DNA of 53,560 nt from Acholeplasmatales bacterium (lineage in GTDB: Bacteria; Bacillota_I; Bacilli_A; Acholeplasmatales; Anaeroplasmataceae): assembly GCA_024698125.1 (NCBI GenBank), contig JAILRQ010000024.1, positions 1-53,560 of the forward strand, written 5' to 3'. Positions 7,172-29,854 of this stretch are shown piece after piece. The notes under the pieces were generated by a model that saw nothing but the letters and a program-made list of their open reading frames with translations, was not told the DNA's origin and did no database searches. How positions within the stretch are numbered: position 1 is the stretch's first letter; each line of letters starts with the position of its first letter. The translations under genes and the position numbers were made by a program.

Positions 7172-8083
7172 TTAGTCCTTCATTAATGTAACCATAACGG
7201 CCTTTTGAGCATGAAGTCTATTCTCTGCCTCATCAAAGATTTCATTTGCGTGAGCCTCAAATACATCAGCTGTAATCTCCTCGCCACGGTGAGCAGGAAG
7301 ACAGTGTTGAACCATTGCATCCTTATGTGCAAGCTTCATGATTTCCTCATTTATTTGATACTTTCCAGCAAATACCTGCTTTCTCTTTTCAGTCTCTGCC
7401 TCTTCACCCATTGATGTCCATACATCAGTGAAGAATACATCGGCGTCTAAAGCCGCAACCTTTGGATCCTCAGTAAGTTCAAACATTCCAGGATAATCCT
7501 TAGCAAAGTCTAATACCTTTTGTGCAGGATAATATCCCTTAGGGCAAGCTACGCTTACCTTCATTCCAACCTTTAATGAACCAACGATAATAGAGTTAGC
7601 CATATTGTTTCCATCTCCGATATAGCATACCTTAAGTCCATCAAAAGCACCCTTGTGCTCACGAATTGTCATAAGGTCAGCTAAAACCTGGCAAGGATGT
7701 GAATAATCAGTTAAGGCGTTAATAACTGGCTTTCCACTCCACTTAGCTAAATCCTCTACTTCCTTTTGGTCAAATGTACGAATCATAATTCCATCAAGGT
7801 AGCGTCCTAAAACTCTTCCTGTATCCTCAATTGGCTCTCCACGTCCAATTTGTAGGTCACGAGATGATAGGAATAATGGATATCCACCAAGCTCATACAT
7901 ACCAACCTCAAATGAAACTCTTGTACGAGTTGATGACTTTTGGAATATTAATCCTAATGTCTTTCCCTTTAAAATTGGATGAGGTATACCATTCTTACGC
8001 TCAAACTTTAATTGATCTGCTAGGTTTAGTAAATCAATTATTTCTTCCTTTGTTAAATCTTGTAGTGTTAAAAAGTTCTTCAT
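7172..8083 (-). CDS. argF: Ornithine carbamoyltransferase
   Basis: FQKSSTRTRVSFEVGMYELGG, DYSHPCQVLADLMT, MVQHCLPAHRGEEI. Start MKNFLTLQDL preferred over the listed MLYM extension. Confidence 0.93.
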   Translation of the reverse strand: MKNFLTLQDLTKEEIIDLLNLADQLKFERKNGIPHPILKGKTLGLIFQKSSTRTRVSFEVGMYELGGYPLFLSSRDLQIGRGEPIEDTGRVLGRYLDGIMIRTFDQKEVEDLAKWSGKPVINALTDYSHPCQVLADLMTIREHKGAFDGLKVCYIGDGNNMANSIIVGSLKVGMKVSVACPKGYYPAQKVLDFAKDYPGMFELTEDPKVAALDADVFFTDVWTSMGEEAETEKRKQVFAGKYQINEEIMKLAHKDAMVQHCLPAHRGEEITADVFEAHANEIFDEAENRLHAQKAVMVTLMKD

Positions 8084-8106
8084 ATATAACACTCCTTTCC
8101 AGTTTT

Positions 8107-9279
8107 TTAATATCTATTAATAATATCGATTAAGATGTCTAATCCTTTATTTAAATCCTCAAATGAAATATTTAATGGAGGTAATAATCTAATCTTAGTC
8201 TTTGCAGTTAAACAAATTACTCCATTCTTAATTCCTTCTGCAACTACCTCAGATGCAACAATTCCATCCTTTAAGGCAATTCCAACCATTAATCCCTTAC
8301 CAGATACAGAAACTACGTTCTTTACATTCTTAAGCTTATCCTCAATAAGCTTTCTTGCTTCCTTAACATGAGCTAATAGCTTATCATCAATTCTTTTGAT
8401 AACACTATATGCTGCAGCAGCTGCAATTGGGTTTCCTCCAAATGTTGTTCCGTGCTCTCCATATCCTAGGGTATTTGCAGTCTTTTCAGAGAAAAGAATT
8501 GCTCCAAATGGAAGTCCTCCAGCAAGTCCCTTAGCTGTTGTTACAACATCAGGAGTTACTCCATACTCCATGTAGCTATATAGATATCCAGTTCTTCCGT
8601 TTCCAGTTTGAACCTCATCTACAATAAATACTAAATCCTTCTCCTTACATACCTTATCGATATACTTTATAAACTCAGGCTCAAGGGCATTTACTCCTCC
8701 CTCTCCCTGAACAGTTTCAATCATAATTGCACATGTCTTATCAGATATTGTGTTCTTAAGCTCCTCAATATCATTTGCATGTACATACTTAAATCCATCA
8801 ACAAATGGTCCAAAATACTTATGGAATACATCTTGTCCTGTTGCACTTAGTGTTGCAATAGTTCTTCCATGGAATGAGTTTACAAGAGTAATAATCTCAT
8901 ATCTATTCTCACCATACTTGTCGAATGAATACTTTCTTGCTGTCTTAATAGCGCACTCATTAGTTTCAGCTCCAGAGTTTGCGAAGAATACCTTCTTCAT
9001 TCCAGTCTTCTCGCAAAGCATTTTTGCAAGCTTAACCTGAGGCTCTGAGTAATAAAGATTTGAAGTATGCTGAATCTTATTTACCTGAGAAATAACAGCC
9101 TTCTTCCACTCCTCATCACAAATACCAAATATATTAGTTCCAATACCTGTTGAGAAGTCGATATACTCCTTACCATTTTCATCAATAAGTGTTGAATTAT
9201 GTCCACTAGTTAAAACAACATTAAATCTTTTATATGTATTAACTATATTTTCCTTATCAAGCTCTATAATATCACTCAT
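8107..9279 (-). CDS. argD: Acetylornithine aminotransferase
   Basis: PLP class III aminotransferase motifs: NSGAETNECAIKTARKY, FIVDEVQTGNGRTG, TTAKGLAGGLPFGA. Inside arg operon. Confidence 0.92.
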   Translation of the reverse strand: MSDIIELDKENIVNTYKRFNVVLTSGHNSTLIDENGKEYIDFSTGIGTNIFGICDEEWKKAVISQVNKIQHTSNLYYSEPQVKLAKMLCEKTGMKKVFFANSGAETNECAIKTARKYSFDKYGENRYEIITLVNSFHGRTIATLSATGQDVFHKYFGPFVDGFKYVHANDIEELKNTISDKTCAIMIETVQGEGGVNALEPEFIKYIDKVCKEKDLVFIVDEVQTGNGRTGYLYSYMEYGVTPDVVTTAKGLAGGLPFGAILFSEKTANTLGYGEHGTTFGGNPIAAAAAYSVIKRIDDKLLAHVKEARKLIEDKLKNVKNVVSVSGKGLMVGIALKDGIVASEVVAEGIKNGVICLTAKTKIRLLPPLNISFEDLNKGLDILIDIINRY

Positions 9280-9290
9280 ATTTTTAACTC

Positions 9291-10145
9291 CTACTTAAAC
9301 ATTGTTCCAATTCCCTCGTCGGTTAATACCTCGATAAGAATTGCATGTGGAACACGTCCATCAATAATAAATACCTTGTTGACACCACGTCTACGTGCTT
9401 CAACACAGCATTCTACCTTAGGAATCATACCACCATCAATAATTCCTTGCTTTTCAAGTGTCTTAAGCTCAGAAACATTAATTTCATGGATAAGAGTTGA
9501 ATCATCATTCTTATCTCTTAATAATCCCTTAATATCAGTTACTGCAATAAAGGCCTCTGCCTTTAGGGCACCAGCAATTCTTGCTGCTGCAGTATCTGCA
9601 TTAATATTATAGCTATTTCCATCCTCATCTGTACCAACAGTTGAGATAACTGGAATATATCCATGATCAAGTGCTGTCATAATAACATCTGGATTAACCT
9701 CAGCGATATCACCAACAAATCCATACTTGTCCTTATTCTTAAACTTACACTTAATCATACCACCATCCATACCAGATAGTCCGATAGCCTTACCACCCTT
9801 AGTTCCAATAAGCTTTACTAGGTCCTTATTTACCTTACCTGCTAAAACCATTTGAACTATATCTGCACCATCACGGTCAGTATATCGTAGTCCATCTACC
9901 TTAATTGTTTCTTTTCCATATGCCTTAAATGCTGTATTAATTTCAGGTCCACCACCATGGACAAGAACAACCTTAACACCAACTAAAGATAGTAAAACTA
10001 CATCCTGCATAACTGATTGCTTAAGATTGTCATCTATCATGGCATTTCCACCATACTTTACAACAATAGTCTTTCCATAATACTTTTGAATATATGGTAA
10101 GGCATGTACTAAAATTTCTGCTTGCTCTTCATTTGAAAACTTCAC
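9291..10145 (-). CDS. argB: Acetylglutamate kinase
   Basis: VVKYGGNAM, VLVHGGGPEIN, GGMIPKVECC; operon context. Confidence 0.93.
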   Translation of the reverse strand: MKFSNEEQAEILVHALPYIQKYYGKTIVVKYGGNAMIDDNLKQSVMQDVVLLSLVGVKVVLVHGGGPEINTAFKAYGKETIKVDGLRYTDRDGADIVQMVLAGKVNKDLVKLIGTKGGKAIGLSGMDGGMIKCKFKNKDKYGFVGDIAEVNPDVIMTALDHGYIPVISTVGTDEDGNSYNINADTAAARIAGALKAEAFIAVTDIKGLLRDKNDDSTLIHEINVSELKTLEKQGIIDGGMIPKVECCVEARRRGVNKVFIIDGRVPHAILIEVLTDEGIGTMFK

Positions 10146-10157
10146 AGGAATTACCTC

Positions 10158-11378
10158 CTAGCTTCTATAATCTCCATTAATCTTTACATAATCATATGTT
10201 AAATCACAACCAAATGCTTGTGAATTATTGTTACCATCATTTAGATTACATCTAATTGTAATCTCATCCTCAAGAAGGATTTCCTTAGCCTTTTCCTCAC
10301 TAAATGGAATTCCAGCTCCATCCTTACATACAGGAAGAATTCCCTTCTTTGATTCAAACTCAACATCAACCTTTGTAATATCTACATTAGCCTGTGAGTA
10401 TCCGATTGCACAAAGTACTCTTCCCCAGTTTGCATCTGCACCAAACATTGCAGCCTTTAATAGAGAAGACATAACTACAGACTTAGCAACAATACGTGCA
10501 TCCTCCATAGTCTTAGCATTTAATACCTCTACTATAAGAAGCTTTGTAGCTCCCTCTCCATCCTTTGCAATTGCCTTACATAGCATTGTAGCTATTGCAA
10601 GTAATGCCTTGTAAAACTCATCATATTCCTTACCCTCACAAGTAATTTCCTTATTACCTGCAAGTCCATTAGCAAGGATTGTTACAGTATCATTAGTTGA
10701 TGTATCTCCATCAACTGATACCATGTTGAATGTATCAACAATAACATTAGATAAAGCCTTTTGTAGCATTGCGCTAGAAATAGCACAGTCAGTTGTAATA
10801 AAGCAAAGCATTGTTGCCATATTTGGCTTAATCATTCCAGAACCCTTGCAGATTCCTCCAATATGACACACCTTACCATCTACCTCAAACTCTAATGCAA
10901 TTTCCTTCTTCTTTGTATCTGTTGTACTAATTGCCTGCCAAGCAAGATCTGATGCACTAGCTTCATTTGAAAGACCAGCAACTAAATCCTTCATATGCTT
11001 TTGAACAGGAGTTATATCTAAAACCTGACCAATTACTCCAGTTGAACCGATTAATACGTTATCAACTGCAATACCAGTCTCCTTAGCTACTGCCTCACAC
11101 ATTGCCTCAGCCTTTTCGATACCATCAGCATTACATGTATTAGCATTTCCACTATTACATACGATAGCTTGAGCATGTCCATCTAGGCTATGCTTCTTAG
11201 TTACATGAATAGGAGCTCCCTTAACAAGGTTAGTTGTATAAACTGATGCAGTTGTACAAAGTGTTTCAGATACAATAAGTGCTAAATCCTTTCTTTCCTT
11301 TTGCTTTCTTAATCCAGAATGAATTCCATTGGCCTTAAATCCCTTTGCAGCAACTACTCCACCACTAATTTCCTTCAT
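10158..11378 (-). CDS. argJ: Glutamate N-acetyltransferase / ArgJ
   Basis: GNANTCNADG, ICKGSGMIKPNMATMLCFITTD (autoproteolytic MATML site), FGADANWGRVLCAIGYS. Confidence 0.93.
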   Translation of the reverse strand: MKEISGGVVAAKGFKANGIHSGLRKQKERKDLALIVSETLCTTASVYTTNLVKGAPIHVTKKHSLDGHAQAIVCNSGNANTCNADGIEKAEAMCEAVAKETGIAVDNVLIGSTGVIGQVLDITPVQKHMKDLVAGLSNEASASDLAWQAISTTDTKKKEIALEFEVDGKVCHIGGICKGSGMIKPNMATMLCFITTDCAISSAMLQKALSNVIVDTFNMVSVDGDTSTNDTVTILANGLAGNKEITCEGKEYDEFYKALLAIATMLCKAIAKDGEGATKLLIVEVLNAKTMEDARIVAKSVVMSSLLKAAMFGADANWGRVLCAIGYSQANVDITKVDVEFESKKGILPVCKDGAGIPFSEEKAKEILLEDEITIRCNLNDGNNNSQAFGCDLTYDYVKINGDYRS

Positions 11379-11388
11379 AATGTTCCTC

Positions 11389-12333
11389 CTACATTTCTAA
11401 TCCAGTCTTAGGATCTAATCCTAAAACGATATTCATTGATTCAATTGCAGCTCCACTTGCTCCCTTTCCTAGGTTATCAAGTGCACATGTGATATTAATT
11501 CTATCATCATTTCCTGCAAAATATATTTCCATATAATCCTTACCTGCTAAATGAGCTGCAGATAAGAATCCATCCTCTGTTCCCTTATCTGTAAGTGGCA
11601 TTACGCGAACAAAGTCTTGACCCTTATAATAATCCTCAAATAGGTCATGTATTTCCTTAACTGTGTACTTCTTAGTAAGTCTATTAGTATATAGAGGAAT
11701 AGTTACAAGCATTCCCTCTAGGAAGTCACATACATAAGGATTGAATAATGGCTTCTCCTTTAAACCTGCAATGACCTGCATTTCAGGTAGGTGCTTATGA
11801 GCCATACTCATAGCGTATAATCTTGGAGCATCGAACTCTTCACTACGATTCTTATCCTCGTACTGGGCAATACCCTTCTTACCAGCTCCACTATATCCTG
11901 ATATAGCGTTAGCTGCGAATGGATAATCAGCTCCAGCAATACCCATATGAACTAATGGATATGCAATAGACATAAATCCTGATGCATAGCATCCTGGATT
12001 TGCAATTCTTTTAGATCCCTTTAGCTTTTCAAGGAATGCCTTATCAAGCTCTGGGAATCCATATGCCCACATAGGATTTGTTCTATGTGCTGTTGAGGCA
12101 TCAATAATAACAGTATTAGGGTTTGTACAAAGCTTTACAGCCTCGATAGCAGCATCATCTGGTAGACATAAAAAGACTACATCGGCAGCGTTAATAAACT
12201 TCTTACGCTCCTCCTCATCATGTCTTTTCTCCTCAGAAATCTTTAATATTTCAATTTCTGGTCTTTTAGATAATCTTTCATTTATTCTAAGTCCTGTTGT
12301 ACCAGATTGTCCGTCAATATAAACCTTAAACAT
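11389..12333 (-). CDS. argC: N-acetyl-gamma-glutamyl-phosphate reductase, short type-2-like form
   Basis: VYIDGQSGTTGLRINERL, DASTAHRTNPMWAYGFPEL, ANPGCYASGF; 314 aa; between argH and argJ. Confidence 0.9.
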   Translation of the reverse strand: MFKVYIDGQSGTTGLRINERLSKRPEIEILKISEEKRHDEEERKKFINAADVVFLCLPDDAAIEAVKLCTNPNTVIIDASTAHRTNPMWAYGFPELDKAFLEKLKGSKRIANPGCYASGFMSIAYPLVHMGIAGADYPFAANAISGYSGAGKKGIAQYEDKNRSEEFDAPRLYAMSMAHKHLPEMQVIAGLKEKPLFNPYVCDFLEGMLVTIPLYTNRLTKKYTVKEIHDLFEDYYKGQDFVRVMPLTDKGTEDGFLSAAHLAGKDYMEIYFAGNDDRINITCALDNLGKGASGAAIESMNIVLGLDPKTGLEM

Positions 12334-12335
12334 CT

Positions 12336-13709
12336 CTATAATCCAAGCTCCTTCTTTAAATCAGCTATTTGCTTAGCTGTTGATTCAATTGATGATGCAC
12401 CCTGTGATGTTCTCTTAAATGTAGCATTTCTTAAATCAATTGCCTCATATAGATCATCCTCAAATAAATCACTAAGCTTCTTATACTCCTCTAGAGGTAG
12501 CTCCTCAAGAGTTGTATTTTTATCAATACATACTGCAACAAGAGTTCCTGAAATCTTGTATGCAGTTCTAAATGCCATTCCCTTCTTAACTAAATAATCA
12601 GCTAAGTCAGTTGCATTAATAAATCCCTTTGCTGCAGCCTTCTTCATATTGTCCTTATTTACAGACATTGTTTCAAGCATTGGTGCAAAAATCTTTAAGC
12701 AATCCTTAATAGTATCTACTGAATCAAAGATTGCTTGCTTATCCTCTTGCATATCCTTGTTATATGCAAGTGGGATACCCTTAAGCATTGTAAGTAGAGT
12801 TATAAGGTTTCCATATACTCTACCAGTCTTACCACGAACAAGCTCTGCAATATCAGGATTCTTCTTTTGTGGCATAATTGATGAACCAGTTGAATATGCG
12901 TCATCTAGGTCAATGAACTTAAACTCCCATGATGACCACATAATAATCTCTTCACTAAATCTTGATAGATGCATTTGCATAATTGCAATTGCTGATGCAA
13001 GCTCTACACAGAAATCTCTATCAGATACACCATCAAGTGTATTTGGAGTAACACTATCCATATGTAATAGGCTTGCTACCATTTCTCTATCAATATTATA
13101 TGTTGTACCAGCAAGAGCACATGATCCAAGTGGATTTCTGTTAAGTCTCTTATTAGTATCATCTAATCTTTCAATATCACGTGCTAGCATAGTTGCATAT
13201 GCTAGTAGATGATTTGCGAATGTGATAGGCTGTGCACGCTGTAGATGTGTATATCCTGGCATGATTGTTTCCTTATTCTTATCAGCAAGGTTTAAAATTA
13301 CATTTATAAGGTTTAGAGTTAAATCCTTAATGTTTTTAATCTCATCTCTTAAATATAATCTTATATCAAGTGCTACCTGATCATTACGAGATCTTGATGT
13401 ATGAAGTCTTTTTCCAACCTCACCAATACGCTTAGTAAGCTCAGCCTCAACAAACATGTGAATGTCTTCAGCATCATAATCAAATAATAGCTTACCACAC
13501 TTGATATCCTCAAGGATTTCTCCTAAGGTCTTACAAATTAGCTCTGAATCAGCCTTAGATATAATATTTTGATGTCCTAGCATTGTTGCATGAGCAATTG
13601 ATCCTAAGATGTCTTGCTCAAACATTCTGCTATCAAAGGAAATTGAAGAGTTAAAATCATTAACATCCTTACTTTCCTCTTTTTTAAATCTACCAGCCCA
13701 CATAGCCAT
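12336..13709 (-). CDS. argH: Argininosuccinate lyase
   Basis: MWAGRFKKEESKDVNDFNSSI, HTSRSRNDQVALDIRLYLRD, PGYTHLQRAQPITF, GSSIMPQKKNPDIAELVRGK. Confidence 0.95.
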   Translation of the reverse strand: MAMWAGRFKKEESKDVNDFNSSISFDSRMFEQDILGSIAHATMLGHQNIISKADSELICKTLGEILEDIKCGKLLFDYDAEDIHMFVEAELTKRIGEVGKRLHTSRSRNDQVALDIRLYLRDEIKNIKDLTLNLINVILNLADKNKETIMPGYTHLQRAQPITFANHLLAYATMLARDIERLDDTNKRLNRNPLGSCALAGTTYNIDREMVASLLHMDSVTPNTLDGVSDRDFCVELASAIAIMQMHLSRFSEEIIMWSSWEFKFIDLDDAYSTGSSIMPQKKNPDIAELVRGKTGRVYGNLITLLTMLKGIPLAYNKDMQEDKQAIFDSVDTIKDCLKIFAPMLETMSVNKDNMKKAAAKGFINATDLADYLVKKGMAFRTAYKISGTLVAVCIDKNTTLEELPLEEYKKLSDLFEDDLYEAIDLRNATFKRTSQGASSIESTAKQIADLKKELGL

Positions 13710-13727
13710 AATAAATCACCACTCTAA

Positions 13728-14954
13728 TTACTTATTTTTCTTGTTATTTAATAATGCTTGAACCTTAATTGGAAGTCCAAATAGGTTAATGAATCCAGCA
13801 GCATCTGCTTGATTATAAGCTCCCTCATCATCACCAAATGATGCAATCTCCTCATTCCATAATGAGTTAGGTGAAGTTAGAGATGCAGGAATAATATTTC
13901 CCTTATAAAGCTTTAGCTTAACGTCTCCTGTAACAACCTCTTGTGTTTGATCAACGAATGCAGATAAAGCCTCTCTTAATTGTGTATACCAAAGTCCATC
14001 GTATACAAGCTCTGAGAACTTATCAGCAACAGTTCTCTTGAAATGCATTGTTTGCTTATCAAGTGTAATAGACTCTAGAAGCTCATGTGCCTCATAAAGA
14101 ATAGTTCCACCTGGAGTCTCATAAACTCCACGAGACTTCATTCCAACAAGTCTATTCTCAACGATGTCGATAATTCCAACACCATTTCTTCCACCAATCT
14201 TATTTAACTCCCAAACAAGATCAACTGCGTTCATCTTCTTACCATTAACCTGAGTAGGAACTCCCTTCTCAAAGTGAATAGTTACATACTCAGCCTTGTC
14301 TGGTGCTTGCTCTGGAGATACTCCCATCTCTAGAATCTTATCATACTTAGGCTCATTTGCTGGATCCTCAAGATCTAGACCCTCATGAGATAAGTGCCAA
14401 AGGTTCTTATCCTTTGAATAGTTAGTCTCTCTTGAAATCTTAAGAGGTACATTATGAGCCTCTGCATAATCGATTTCCTCATCACGAGACTTAATATCCC
14501 ACTCACGCCATGGTGCAATGATTGGCATATTAGGAGCTACTGCCTTAATAGCAAGCTCGAAACGTACTTGGTCATTACCCTTTCCAGTACATCCATGAAC
14601 GATGGCGTCTGCCTTCTCCTTTAATGCAATCTCAGCAATACGCTTTGCAATAATAGGACGTGCAAATGATGTTCCTAATAAATACTTTCCTTCATACTTA
14701 GCTCCAGCCTTTAATGTTGGGAAAATATAGTCCTCAACGAACTCCTTATTTAAATCCTCTACATAAAGCTTAGATGCTCCTGTCTTAAGTGCCTTTGCCT
14801 CAAGACCATCAAGCTCATCAGCTTGACCTACATTACCAGAAACTGCAATAACCTCACAGTTATTATAATTCTCCTTTAACCAAGGAATGATAATTGAAGT
14901 ATCAAGTCCTCCTGAATAAGCTAATACAACCTTCTTAATATTCTTCTTGTCCAT
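13728..14954 (-). CDS. argG: Argininosuccinate synthase
   Basis: [68 protein letters not shown]. Confidence 0.95.
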
Positions 14955-14989: not shown

Positions 14990-15240
14990 GTACAAAAAAA
15001 GTCCCTTTCTTTTATAAGAAAGAGACGCAAAATTTCGCGCGGTACCACTCTAATTGCCTAGTATAAGCTAGACCACCTCAAAATCCTTAACGCAGACCAT
15101 ACGTCCTATCATACTAAAACCTTCTGATAAGCATCTAGTAGACGCGTTCATTACTCACTAATACTAGCCTTTCACCAATCGCTAGTTCGCTTCTTCATTA
15201 AGTATAATAATTACTAATTCTACTTACGACTATTTTAAGC
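14990..15240 (-). promoter_or_regulatory. T-box leader of the arginine operon
   Basis: Minus strand contains AGAGTGGTACCGCGCGAAATTTTGCGTCTC (T-box sequence), stem I GGTGAAAG element, and a terminator GTCTCTTTCTTATAAAAGAAAGGGAC-TTTTTTT. Candidate specifier CGC in TGAACGCGTC. Confidence 0.92.
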
Positions 15241-15242
15241 TT

Positions 15243-15324
15243 AGAAAAATAAAAGAGACTAACTCAAGTAAATTAGTCTCCTTTATTTTTGAAGAGACTA
15301 ATAATTATGAATTAATCTCTTCAT
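15243..15324 (-). promoter_or_regulatory. Attenuator-like tandem hairpins upstream of the arg T-box
   Basis: Minus strand GAAGAGATTAAT-TCATAATT-ATTAGTCTCTTC, then GGAGACTAA-TTTACTTGAG-TTAGTCTC-TTTTATTTTT. ATTAGTCTC of hairpin 1 can also pair with GAGACTAAT of hairpin 2. Confidence 0.6.
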
Positions 15325-15495
15325 AATTATACTCAAGTTTATTTGTTATTCTAAACTATCTTTGCAATATAGTCATCGTAAATCGGAGGCATTACCCCTA
15401 ACTTAGGATGACAATAATTATTATAATCTAATATTTTTAAAGTGTCAACAACAAATTACAAAAAGTATGATATAATGGGTGCAGGTGATTTTAAT

Positions 15496-27363: not shown

Positions 27364-27394
27364 TAAAAAAGGGAGTAAACTCCCCTTTTTAATT
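27364..27394 (-). terminator. tyrS terminator
   Basis: Minus strand AAAAGGGGAGTTTACTCCCTTTTTTATTT. Confidence 0.75.
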
Positions 27395-28619
27395 AAAATT
27401 TAACTAAAGCGTATAGCTTCTTACCACGACGAAGGACAATATACTTTCCTTCAATAGCCTTAGAAGCATCAATTGTATATGTAAGATCTGTAATCTTATC
27501 TCCATTTACAGATGCGGCATTTGATTGAATAAACTGTCTAGCCTCACGGTTAGATTGAGCAAGACCTGATTCAACAAGGGCATTAATTAAAGGCATTTCC
27601 TTACCACTAATTGTAGGTACTCCTTCAAATCCCATCTCAATCTCACGAGCTGTTAAATCCTTAACGTTTCCTGAGAATAGAGCCTCAGAAATACGTACAG
27701 CCTCTTGGTATGCATCCTCACCATGGATAAACTTAATAACCTCATGAGCTAAAGCCTTATGAGCCTCTCTTAGCTCAGGATGCTCATTATTCTTCTTCTC
27801 AAGCTCCTCAATTTCCTCCTTAGATAGGAATGTTAAGAACTTAAGGTAGTCAATAACCTTTGAATCCTCTGAGTTAATGAAGAATTGATACATCTCATAT
27901 GGAGAAGTCTTATTTGGATCTAGCCAAATAGCCTTTCCATTAGTCTTACCAAACTTAGTTCCGTCACTCTTAGTTAAAAGTGGCATTGTAAATCCATAGG
28001 CAGTATGTCCAAGCTTCTTTCTAATAAGCTCAATACCTGCAGTAATATTTCCCCATTGATCTTGTCCTGCGACCTGCATATCAACACCCTTATTCTCATG
28101 AAGGAATAGGAAGTCTGCAGCTTGCATAATCATATAAGAGAACTCAGTATATGTAATACCCTCACCAGAGTTTACACGACGAGCAATAATATCCTTTTGA
28201 AGCATGTAGTTAACATTAAAATACTTTCCAAAGTCTCTTAAGAAATCAATAAAGTTAATCTTTGAAAGCCAATCGTAGTTATTAACTACCTCGCATCCAA
28301 ACATATCCTCAAGCTGAGACTTTAAGCAATCAAAGTTATGCTTAACAGTTTCATATTGAATCATAGGACGCTCAGCATTTGGCTTTGGATCTCCAATAAG
28401 TCCAGTACCTCCTCCTACTAATACGATAGGATGGTGTCCTGCCTCCTTTAATCTCTTACAAATTAAGAATGATGAGAAATGTCCAATGTGAAGTGAATCT
28501 CCAGTTGGGTCAGTTCCAATATAAAATGTCATTCCACCCTTATTAAGCTTTTCCTTAATTTCAGGATCAGATACATCCTTAATTAATCCTCTCCACTCTA
28601 GTTCCTCGTAAATACCCAT
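27393..28619 (-). CDS. tyrS: Tyrosyl-tRNA synthetase
   Basis: DPTGDSLHIGHFSS, GGGTGLIGDP, QVAGQDQWGNITAG, KFGKTNGKAIWLD, C-terminal S4-like domain; Tyr T-box upstream. Confidence 0.95.
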   Translation of the reverse strand: MGIYEELEWRGLIKDVSDPEIKEKLNKGGMTFYIGTDPTGDSLHIGHFSSFLICKRLKEAGHHPIVLVGGGTGLIGDPKPNAERPMIQYETVKHNFDCLKSQLEDMFGCEVVNNYDWLSKINFIDFLRDFGKYFNVNYMLQKDIIARRVNSGEGITYTEFSYMIMQAADFLFLHENKGVDMQVAGQDQWGNITAGIELIRKKLGHTAYGFTMPLLTKSDGTKFGKTNGKAIWLDPNKTSPYEMYQFFINSEDSKVIDYLKFLTFLSKEEIEELEKKNNEHPELREAHKALAHEVIKFIHGEDAYQEAVRISEALFSGNVKDLTAREIEMGFEGVPTISGKEMPLINALVESGLAQSNREARQFIQSNAASVNGDKITDLTYTIDASKAIEGKYIVLRRGKKLYALVKF

Positions 28620-28644: not shown

Positions 28645-28848
28645 TAAAAAAAGCGTCCTAATCTAAGGACGCTTATAAACGTGGTACCACCTTAGTTCAG
28701 AATAATAATTATTCTGCACTTATATGCTATATCGCGCAACCGTATCAATTTTTACTGAACTGTAATTCAAAATATATTTCTATAAGCTTTCACCAGCCGC
28801 TTATTCTCTAAATAGGTACAATATATTTCTACTATGATTCAATTGATA
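28645..28848 (-). promoter_or_regulatory. T-box leader of tyrS, Tyr specifier UAC
   Basis: Minus strand AAGGTGGTACCACG T-box sequence, GGCTGGTGAAAGC stem I element, specifier in TTGAAT-TAC-AGTTC, terminator AAGCGTCCTTAGATTAGGACGCTTTTTTT. Confidence 0.92.
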
Positions 28849-28849
28849 A

Positions 28850-29854
28850 TTACATAGATTGTCTTCTTATTACACTATATGGTAATAGAATATGCTTTGA
28901 AGACTCTTCAGTCTCATCACTAGCTGGATCCATAAGCTTTGTTAAAAGTCTCATTGAAACAGCACCTATATCATACACCGGAGTGTAGATACATGTCAAG
29001 TTTGGTCTTGAAAGTAATGCATATTTTGTGTTTTGGAATCCAATTACTGATAGGTCATCAGGAACCTTCTTTCCTAAATCAGTCATTACATTCATAAATG
29101 ATACAGCGATTGAGTCACGAACTGCAAGTGCTGCATCTACACCCTTACCCTGGAAGAACTCTCTAAAGTGAGGTGTATTAATATTTACATCTCCTGATGT
29201 TCTAAATACCTTAGGCTCAAGTCCAGCCTCCTCCATAGCTTGCTTATATCCTGCAATCTTTGGAGTGTTAACACTATATTTTCTAACTGTAGCTAGCATA
29301 TAAATATCCTTCTTACCCTTAGAGATTAGCTCCTTAGTAATTTCATATGCTGCCTTAGCATAGTCTACCATTACAGATGGAAGAATGTCTGAATCAAGAT
29401 ATACGTTAGCTAAAACCATCTTGATTTCAGCCTCCTCTACTCTTTCCTTAACAATTCTCATTTCATTATCATCAAGCTCATCGTTCATGAAGATAATTCC
29501 ATCAACCTGCTCAGCAATTACATTACGGATAGATTCCTCAATATCAGTATCTCCCGCCATTGAGAATAGCTTAATAGAATAATTATACTTCTTTGCAATA
29601 TCAATTATTCCTCCAAGTAGCTGTGCAGTAGCGGCTCTTGTTACGTCAGATAGTACAATACCTACTGTTGTTGTTTTCTTTGAAGCAAGTCCTCTTGCAA
29701 TAGCATTAGGATGGTATCCTAGCTCCTTAATAACTGCCTCTACTCTTTGTCTTGTTTCCTTATTAACCTTATTAGGATTATTTAAAACTCTACTTACAGT
29801 AGCTAAGCTAACCTTAGCCTTACCTGCAACGTCATAAATAGTTACACGTGCCAT
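28850..29854 (-). CDS. LacI-family transcriptional regulator, CcpA-like
   Basis: MARVTIYDVAGKAKVSLATVSRVLNNPNKVNKETRQRV HTH; GELGYHPNAIARGLA-type hinge helix; GGAGG before the ATG at 29854. Confidence 0.88.
   Translation of the reverse strand: MARVTIYDVAGKAKVSLATVSRVLNNPNKVNKETRQRVEAVIKELGYHPNAIARGLASKKTTTVGIVLSDVTRAATAQLLGGIIDIAKKYNYSIKLFSMAGDTDIEESIRNVIAEQVDGIIFMNDELDDNEMRIVKERVEEAEIKMVLANVYLDSDILPSVMVDYAKAAYEITKELISKGKKDIYMLATVRKYSVNTPKIAGYKQAMEEAGLEPKVFRTSGDVNINTPHFREFFQGKGVDAALAVRDSIAVSFMNVMTDLGKKVPDDLSVIGFQNTKYALLSRPNLTCIYTPVYDIGAVSMRLLTKLMDPASDETEESSKHILLPYSVIRRQSM

Follow-up and report, generated by a model that had tools for sequence, protein, structure and literature searches.

A probable terminator-controlling leader RNA ahead of the arginine T-box in Anaeroplasmataceae and related Bacilli

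In the 53,560-nucleotide stretch of Acholeplasmatales DNA that we analysed (the window), the leader of the arginine operon carries, between its promoter and its T-box, a second element with a conserved core, alternative pairings and its own terminator. We consider this, with fair probability, to be an uncatalogued type of cis-regulatory RNA that governs termination of transcription ahead of the T-box. Among leader RNAs that control a terminator, a riboswitch is the sub-kind that we favour. Tentatively, and as a bolder proposal, the element may represent a new riboswitch class of ArgR-less Bacilli, responding to a signal of amino-acid supply by switching on both the synthesis and the import of arginine, and acting in series (up to three copies) or together with an Arg T-box. 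This class would come in two strand orders, one canonical, with the P1 strands flanking the core, and one circularly permuted, the form of the window, in which the core precedes both strands.

Organization of the leader

A sequence-only reading of this DNA had placed four segments on the minus strand at 15330..15243, able to form either 1:2 together with the terminator 3:4, or 2:3, and had interpreted them as an attenuator stacked upstream of the arginine T-box. The segments and both hairpins are found in that place (Table 1), and the RNA 15330..15243 folds at -36.6 kcal/mol, compared to -12.2 +/- 2.4 for dinucleotide shuffles (n = 200; z = -10.2; 0/200 shuffles equally good). The 2:3 complementarity is also real, at -13.3 kcal/mol in the window, and is retained in homologs. 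In 22 leaders (21 from Anaeroplasmataceae, plus L261 of a different family), the pairing of segment 2 with segment 3 of the same leader averages -9.1 vs -6.2 with the segment 3 of other loci, and 1:2 averages -12.1 vs -7.2 with other leaders (0/20000 permutations as good in either case), a statistic that ignores kinship; two terminators of the set were misparsed by the script, and the effect runs against the result. Homologous leaders without the 2:3 complementarity were looked for among these 22, and none was found. The 2:3 partners co-vary, reading AUUAGUCUC/GAGACUAAU in the window and UGUCCUUU/AAAGAGGGCA in L059, AUGGGC/GUCCAU in L051, UUGGUC/GGCCAA in L062 and GCUAG/CUAGC in L261, and the arrangement of 1:2, 2:3 and 3:4 is preserved across homologs of divergent sequence.

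Table 1. Features of the arginine operon and its leader, in order of transcription
Feature	Position	Strand	Remarks
Promoter TTGACA-17-TATAAT, sigma-70-type	15420..15448	-	12/12 consensus match
5' hairpin, at the predicted leader start	15372..15412	-	fold -18.0 kcal/mol
Core 5' strand GC-AAAGAU (consensus MAAGAU)	15356..15365	-	AAGAU in 40/41 copies, three families
Stem P2, AGUUUA ... UAAACU, loop variable	15336..15357	-	fully paired in each of 12 distinct stems
Core 3' strand UGAGUA (consensus UGAGYA)	15330..15335	-	41/41 copies
Hairpin P3, AUAAUUAUG(AA) ... (UU)CAUAAUUAU, segment 1 in loop	15301..15330	-	15330..15322 with 15309..15301, extends to 11 pairs
Segment 1, GAAGAGATTAAT	15322..15311	-	exact coordinates; pairs with segment 2 in all homologs
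Segment 2, ATTAGTCTCTTC	15302..15291	-	partner is segment 1 or 3
Segment 3, GGAGACTAAT	15281..15272	-	terminator 5' arm, or partner of segment 2 in the antiterminator
Segment 4, TTAGTCTC (15262..15255), and T-run TTTTATTTTT (15254..15245)	15245..15262	-	intrinsic terminator; 3:4 fold -17.3 kcal/mol
T-box leader	15018..15235	-	RF00230, 125.5 bits
argG-argH-argC-argJ-argB-argD-argF	7172..14954	-	argG by NCBIfam, rest by Pfam

These segments are the 3' half only of a larger leader RNA that begins at a consensus promoter. The element starts about 80 nt upstream of them, in a stretch that the earlier reading did not cover. Judging from the position of the promoter, which has a similar counterpart at the same place in homologs, the leader is predicted to start at about 15412. 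Its 5' hairpin begins about 8 nt past the promoter and is followed by GCAAAGATAGTTTAG..TAAACTTGAGTATAATTATG and then by segments 1-4. Most homologs likewise have a hairpin at the 5' end of the leader, with a loop different from that of the window; a pairing partner for the window's 5' hairpin was sought among segments 1-3 and none was found. In L049 and most of its relatives the loop of this hairpin, UUUUGGGCCGGUUCCUUA, is strongly conserved, and it is this hairpin that is swapped for another in the window and its genus mate; a complement of UUUUGGGCCGGUUCCUUA was likewise sought among segments 1-3 and not found. Further upstream, TGAAAACGTTTT is conserved about 35-50 nt ahead of the -35 box in L049, L053, L055 and other argG-type leaders and resembles a catabolite (CcpA) cre site; none was seen in the window copy.

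Downstream of the element, the RF00230 T-box, with its Arg specifier CGC (15146..15144) at the expected place when read from the alignment, is followed by a complete arginine operon, in which the argD and argB labels are given by family plus context. The RF00230 model matches 15235..15018 only and does not reach into the upstream element. The upstream neighbor of the leader is hsp33, on the opposite strand. The window holds a second T-box leader (28855..28662, minus strand), situated directly before a gene named from its sequence as tyrosyl-tRNA synthetase-like (27393..28619), with a LacI-type regulator gene directly upstream.

The conserved core

DNA and pattern searches of relatives put the most conserved part of the leader at 15365..15330. 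In 41 distinct copies, drawn from three Bacilli families, this core has the consensus 5'-(A/C)AAGAU / P2 / UGAGYA, the single deviant copy reading AAGAG. The stem P2 covaries, and does so across families: counting the first four pairs of its 12 distinct stems, 48/48 cells are paired vs 34.8 +/- 2.1 in shuffles, a result matched by 0/20000 of them. The canonical copies fold as P1, a 6x6 internal loop and P2, with the 3' strand of P1 running into the 5' arm of the terminator. It is possible that the internal loop is a kink-turn or a loop-E. In the gene-proximal copies of L239, L241, L080, L252 and L260 there are two UGAGYAUA-type 3' strands for each AAGAU strand, so that P2 can form in either of two ways (e.g. 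AGAA/UUCU or AGAAGUA/UACUUCU).

The window type differs in the helix beyond UGAGUA, which is formed by UAAUUAUG with CAUAAUUA and has its second strand 3' of segment 1, not 5' of the core, such that the strand order of P1 can be read as circularly permuted. This helix, P3, overlaps 1:2, and the two are mutually exclusive. Every intact Anaeroplasmataceae copy, and L261 as well, has an identical P3; being invariant, the pairing shows no covariation, and its support is its presence in two families and its geometry. L261 combines a canonical core (CAAGAU, UGAGCA and another P2) with window-type P3 and 1:2 and, on these sequence traits, is an intermediate linking the two forms. The covariance model built from canonical copies (R2, below) matches the window copy weakly (E 0.29), and the putative link between window and canonical forms rests on core sequence, P2, gene context and L261. 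A P1 for the window type composed of the region 5' of the core and segment 2 was considered; the pairing GACUA/UAGUC exists in the window and, judged by eye, is not preserved in homologs.

Distribution and genomic context

The core is present in 24/55 genomes of the family (records named Anaeroplasmataceae or Acholeplasmatales, among them Anaeroplasma bactoclasticum ATCC 27112, locus L053), in nearly every case ahead of the argG T-box; the exceptions, which lack a T-box, precede an amino-acid ABC transporter (L051, L065) or a HAD hydrolase gene (L055). Beyond the family, its carriers are related uncultured gut Bacilli, where the core stands before amino-acid import genes. A covariance model of the core (R1) matched L080 in another family, where this locus and its relatives have three copies in series upstream of a polar amino-acid ABC transporter, every copy having a terminator of its own. 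A model built from the L080-type copies, without the window type (R2), matched L250 to L253, and its extension with these finds (R3) matched L260, L261 and L263, of which L261 and L263 belong to a third family. The searches were seeded solely from argG leaders and reached other families, and all but one of the new R2 and R3 matches with E < 0.05 are found upstream of genes for amino-acid ABC transport or of an argG T-box. The exception, L262, is, like L079, a chance match inside coding sequence. At L250, in a family distinct from the window's, a canonical core lies directly before a T-box (140.8 bits) and argG; the core is thus placed before argG T-boxes independently in Anaeroplasmataceae and a second family. 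Copies in tandem, each with its own terminator, occur as triples (G303, G297, G356, G367) and as pairs (G338, G379, G332). In L065 and L062 a canonical-type copy (P1 GACAG/CUGUC, own terminator) lies upstream of a window-type copy; in L065 both forms stand in series before one ABC transporter gene, and the L062 contig ends short of the gene.

The binding proteins of these transporters are family-3 solute-binding proteins (Pfam). Their best NCBIfam models are lysine/arginine/ornithine for 3/4 and glutamine for 1/4, all below curated cut-offs, and the closest solved structures are the amino-acid binding proteins 4i62 and 4h5f, which we take to be arginine-bound. By homology, then, arginine is the likely transported substrate of these ABC systems.

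Outside the Bacilli, R3 gave nothing credible in a phylum sample; the search used stricter filters, scored few candidates per genome and relied on a model that misses the window itself, so that it says little about true absence. A pattern scan of viral contigs returned chance matches alone, as expected of so loose a pattern, and the loose pattern in Bacilli hit mostly coding sequence by chance. L233-L237 are not leader elements. The tandem matches L231/L232 (G453, G483) are an unrelated 67-bp direct-repeat array before PTS-type genes, whose fit to the loose core pattern is fortuitous and which may be a repeated element in its own right.

Proposed mechanism

Two properties of the element are those expected of a riboswitch: it is a conserved, structured 5' leader RNA before several unrelated gene families (41 copies), and its expression platform and sensor fold are mutually exclusive, P1 overlapping the terminator in one form and P3 competing with 1:2 in the other, with 2:3 conserved. 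The sequences provide the parts themselves and how well they are conserved, the covarying P2 stem, the retained alternative pairings and the neighboring genes. From these we infer that the element switches, that it does so in the ON direction and that a small molecule bound by the RNA is its signal, along with any link of that signal to arginine or nitrogen.

The sensor would be the hairpin with the conserved internal loop, in which 5'-MAAGAU lies opposite UGAGYA and P2 closes one side. The signal would stabilize the loop and allow the helix on the other side to form, P1 in canonical copies and P3 in the window. In canonical copies, where one sequence serves both as the 3' strand of P1 and as the terminator's 5' arm, formation of P1 would block the terminator directly. 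In the window, P3 would trap segment 1 and free segment 2 for pairing with segment 3, which again would block the terminator. With no signal, 1:2 and 3:4 would form and transcription would stop. Since the closing helix is incompatible with termination in both forms, an ON switch is predicted. Followed by the Arg T-box, which is ON with uncharged tRNA, it would make an AND gate in which both inputs are required. Arginine cannot drive an ON switch for arginine supply in simple feedback, and therefore the natural ligand is not obvious.

ArgR (PF01316) was found in 0/19 carrier genomes and in 9/14 control genomes, and CAT_RBD (PF03123), the RNA-binding domain of the BglG/LicT type, in 0/19 carriers while being detected in controls, which argues against control by ArgR or by a BglG-type antiterminator. 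The absence of ArgR may be a lineage trait; the leader RNA is a candidate for the missing amino-acid sensor in these carriers.

Alternative explanations

A metabolite aptamer is the type of sensor that we favor, and an antiterminator protein, of the BglG/LicT or a similar type, is possible. Such a protein would bind the internal-loop hairpin, stabilize it and prevent termination. A conserved internal-loop hairpin overlapping a terminator is indeed the layout of a ribonucleic antiterminator, and the small size of the conserved part (~12 nucleotides) would be equally natural for a protein-binding site and for an aptamer. However, the associated genes are neither PTS nor sugar genes, the core is unlike the BglG-family site, and the lack of CAT_RBD in all 19 carriers speaks against the BglG type, though not against other RNA-binding proteins. 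On balance we regard a protein-bound hairpin as somewhat unlikely.

We give little credence to a divergent member of a known riboswitch class, e.g. a guanidine-IV or Gd4v variant. Gd4v is described as an orphan that is enriched in the gut, acts through a terminator and is associated with an enzyme linked to arginine/agmatine, but in the same account both Gd4v and guanidine-IV consist of two hairpins held together by a pseudoknot and are located ahead of genes of the transaminase, MATE or sugE type (PMC9788692). Moreover, Rfam 15 at permissive thresholds returned the T-boxes as the sole true matches, besides chance matches of microRNA and snoRNA type. Equally improbable is a constitutive double terminator or transcription insulator without sensing; two strong hairpins in series with hsp33 divergent upstream would suit it, but a constitutive terminator between the operon promoter and its genes would silence the operon, and the conservation of the alternative pairings and the core runs counter to a plain insulator.

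The proposal that stalling at the AGA codon of a leader peptide flips 1:2 to 2:3 retains almost no probability: the ATG..TAG frame (15324..15298, MKRLIHNY*) does overlap segment 1, but no ribosome-binding site is seen, in agreement with the caveat made at the time, homologs continue after the ATG as MKD*, MEEQ*, MKGH*, MGLSIRFIISP* or MQAHDLHNYGL.. with neither peptide, length nor Arg codon in common, membership in the core AUAAUUAUG accounts for the retention of the ATG itself, the conserved part lies upstream of the mini-ORF, canonical copies lack such an ORF arrangement, and the same RNA precedes transporter genes and occurs without a T-box. The leader-peptide mechanism thus fails because the ORF is not conserved; what stands of the stacked attenuator is the second terminator-type switch with its conserved alternative pairings. 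Nor is the TATAAT before this ATG a promoter -10, as had been suggested. It belongs to the conserved RNA core UUGAGUAUAAUUAUG; its distance from GCAAAGATAGTTTA differs among homologs and the very similar core of other families reads UGAGCAUA, and therefore it is an RNA element and not a -10 box.

Significance and comparison with known systems

If the terminator-controlling RNA favored here is real, an Arg T-box and a switch unmatched in Rfam are combined in the operon leader of carriers without the usual arginine repressor, and it may be that this second switch senses amino-acid supply and has so far escaped notice. Were its signal a small molecule, it would define a riboswitch class not known before and connected with arginine supply; were it a protein, a new antiterminator system. 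The small size of the element, its tandem repeats within genomes and its strong terminator would make it easy to screen ligands by in vitro transcription. The natural circular permutation, if true, would inform the evolution of riboswitch topologies. Among the papers searched, the phrase 'arginine riboswitch' occurs once, in a single paper on Mg2+ effects on RNA.

With the RAT sites of BglG/LicT, the element shares an internal-loop hairpin that overlaps a terminator and whose stabilization would give antitermination, but it differs in sequence, in its genes and in carriers without a CAT_RBD protein. It stands in the same leader as the T-box (RF00230) and follows the same terminator/antiterminator logic, whereas it has neither specifier loop nor T-box sequence and also occurs without a T-box. 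The closest orphan in flavor is Gd4v, as described in PMC9788692: with guanidine-IV/Gd4v the element has in common an orphan or ligand-ON terminator switch, gut bacteria and a guanidino-compound flavor of the genes, and by that description it is set apart through a single internal-loop hairpin, in place of two with a pseudoknot, and other genes. A parallel in arrangement is provided by the tandem leaders of ppGpp riboswitch and T-box(Leu), for which an AND gate has been predicted and in which each switch has its own expression platform (PMC9481103). Both place an ON-type terminator switch, in the window a predicted one, beside a T-box before amino-acid genes, but the RNA of the window has no Rfam ykkC-clan match, is paired with an Arg and not a Leu T-box, and is built on a far smaller core.
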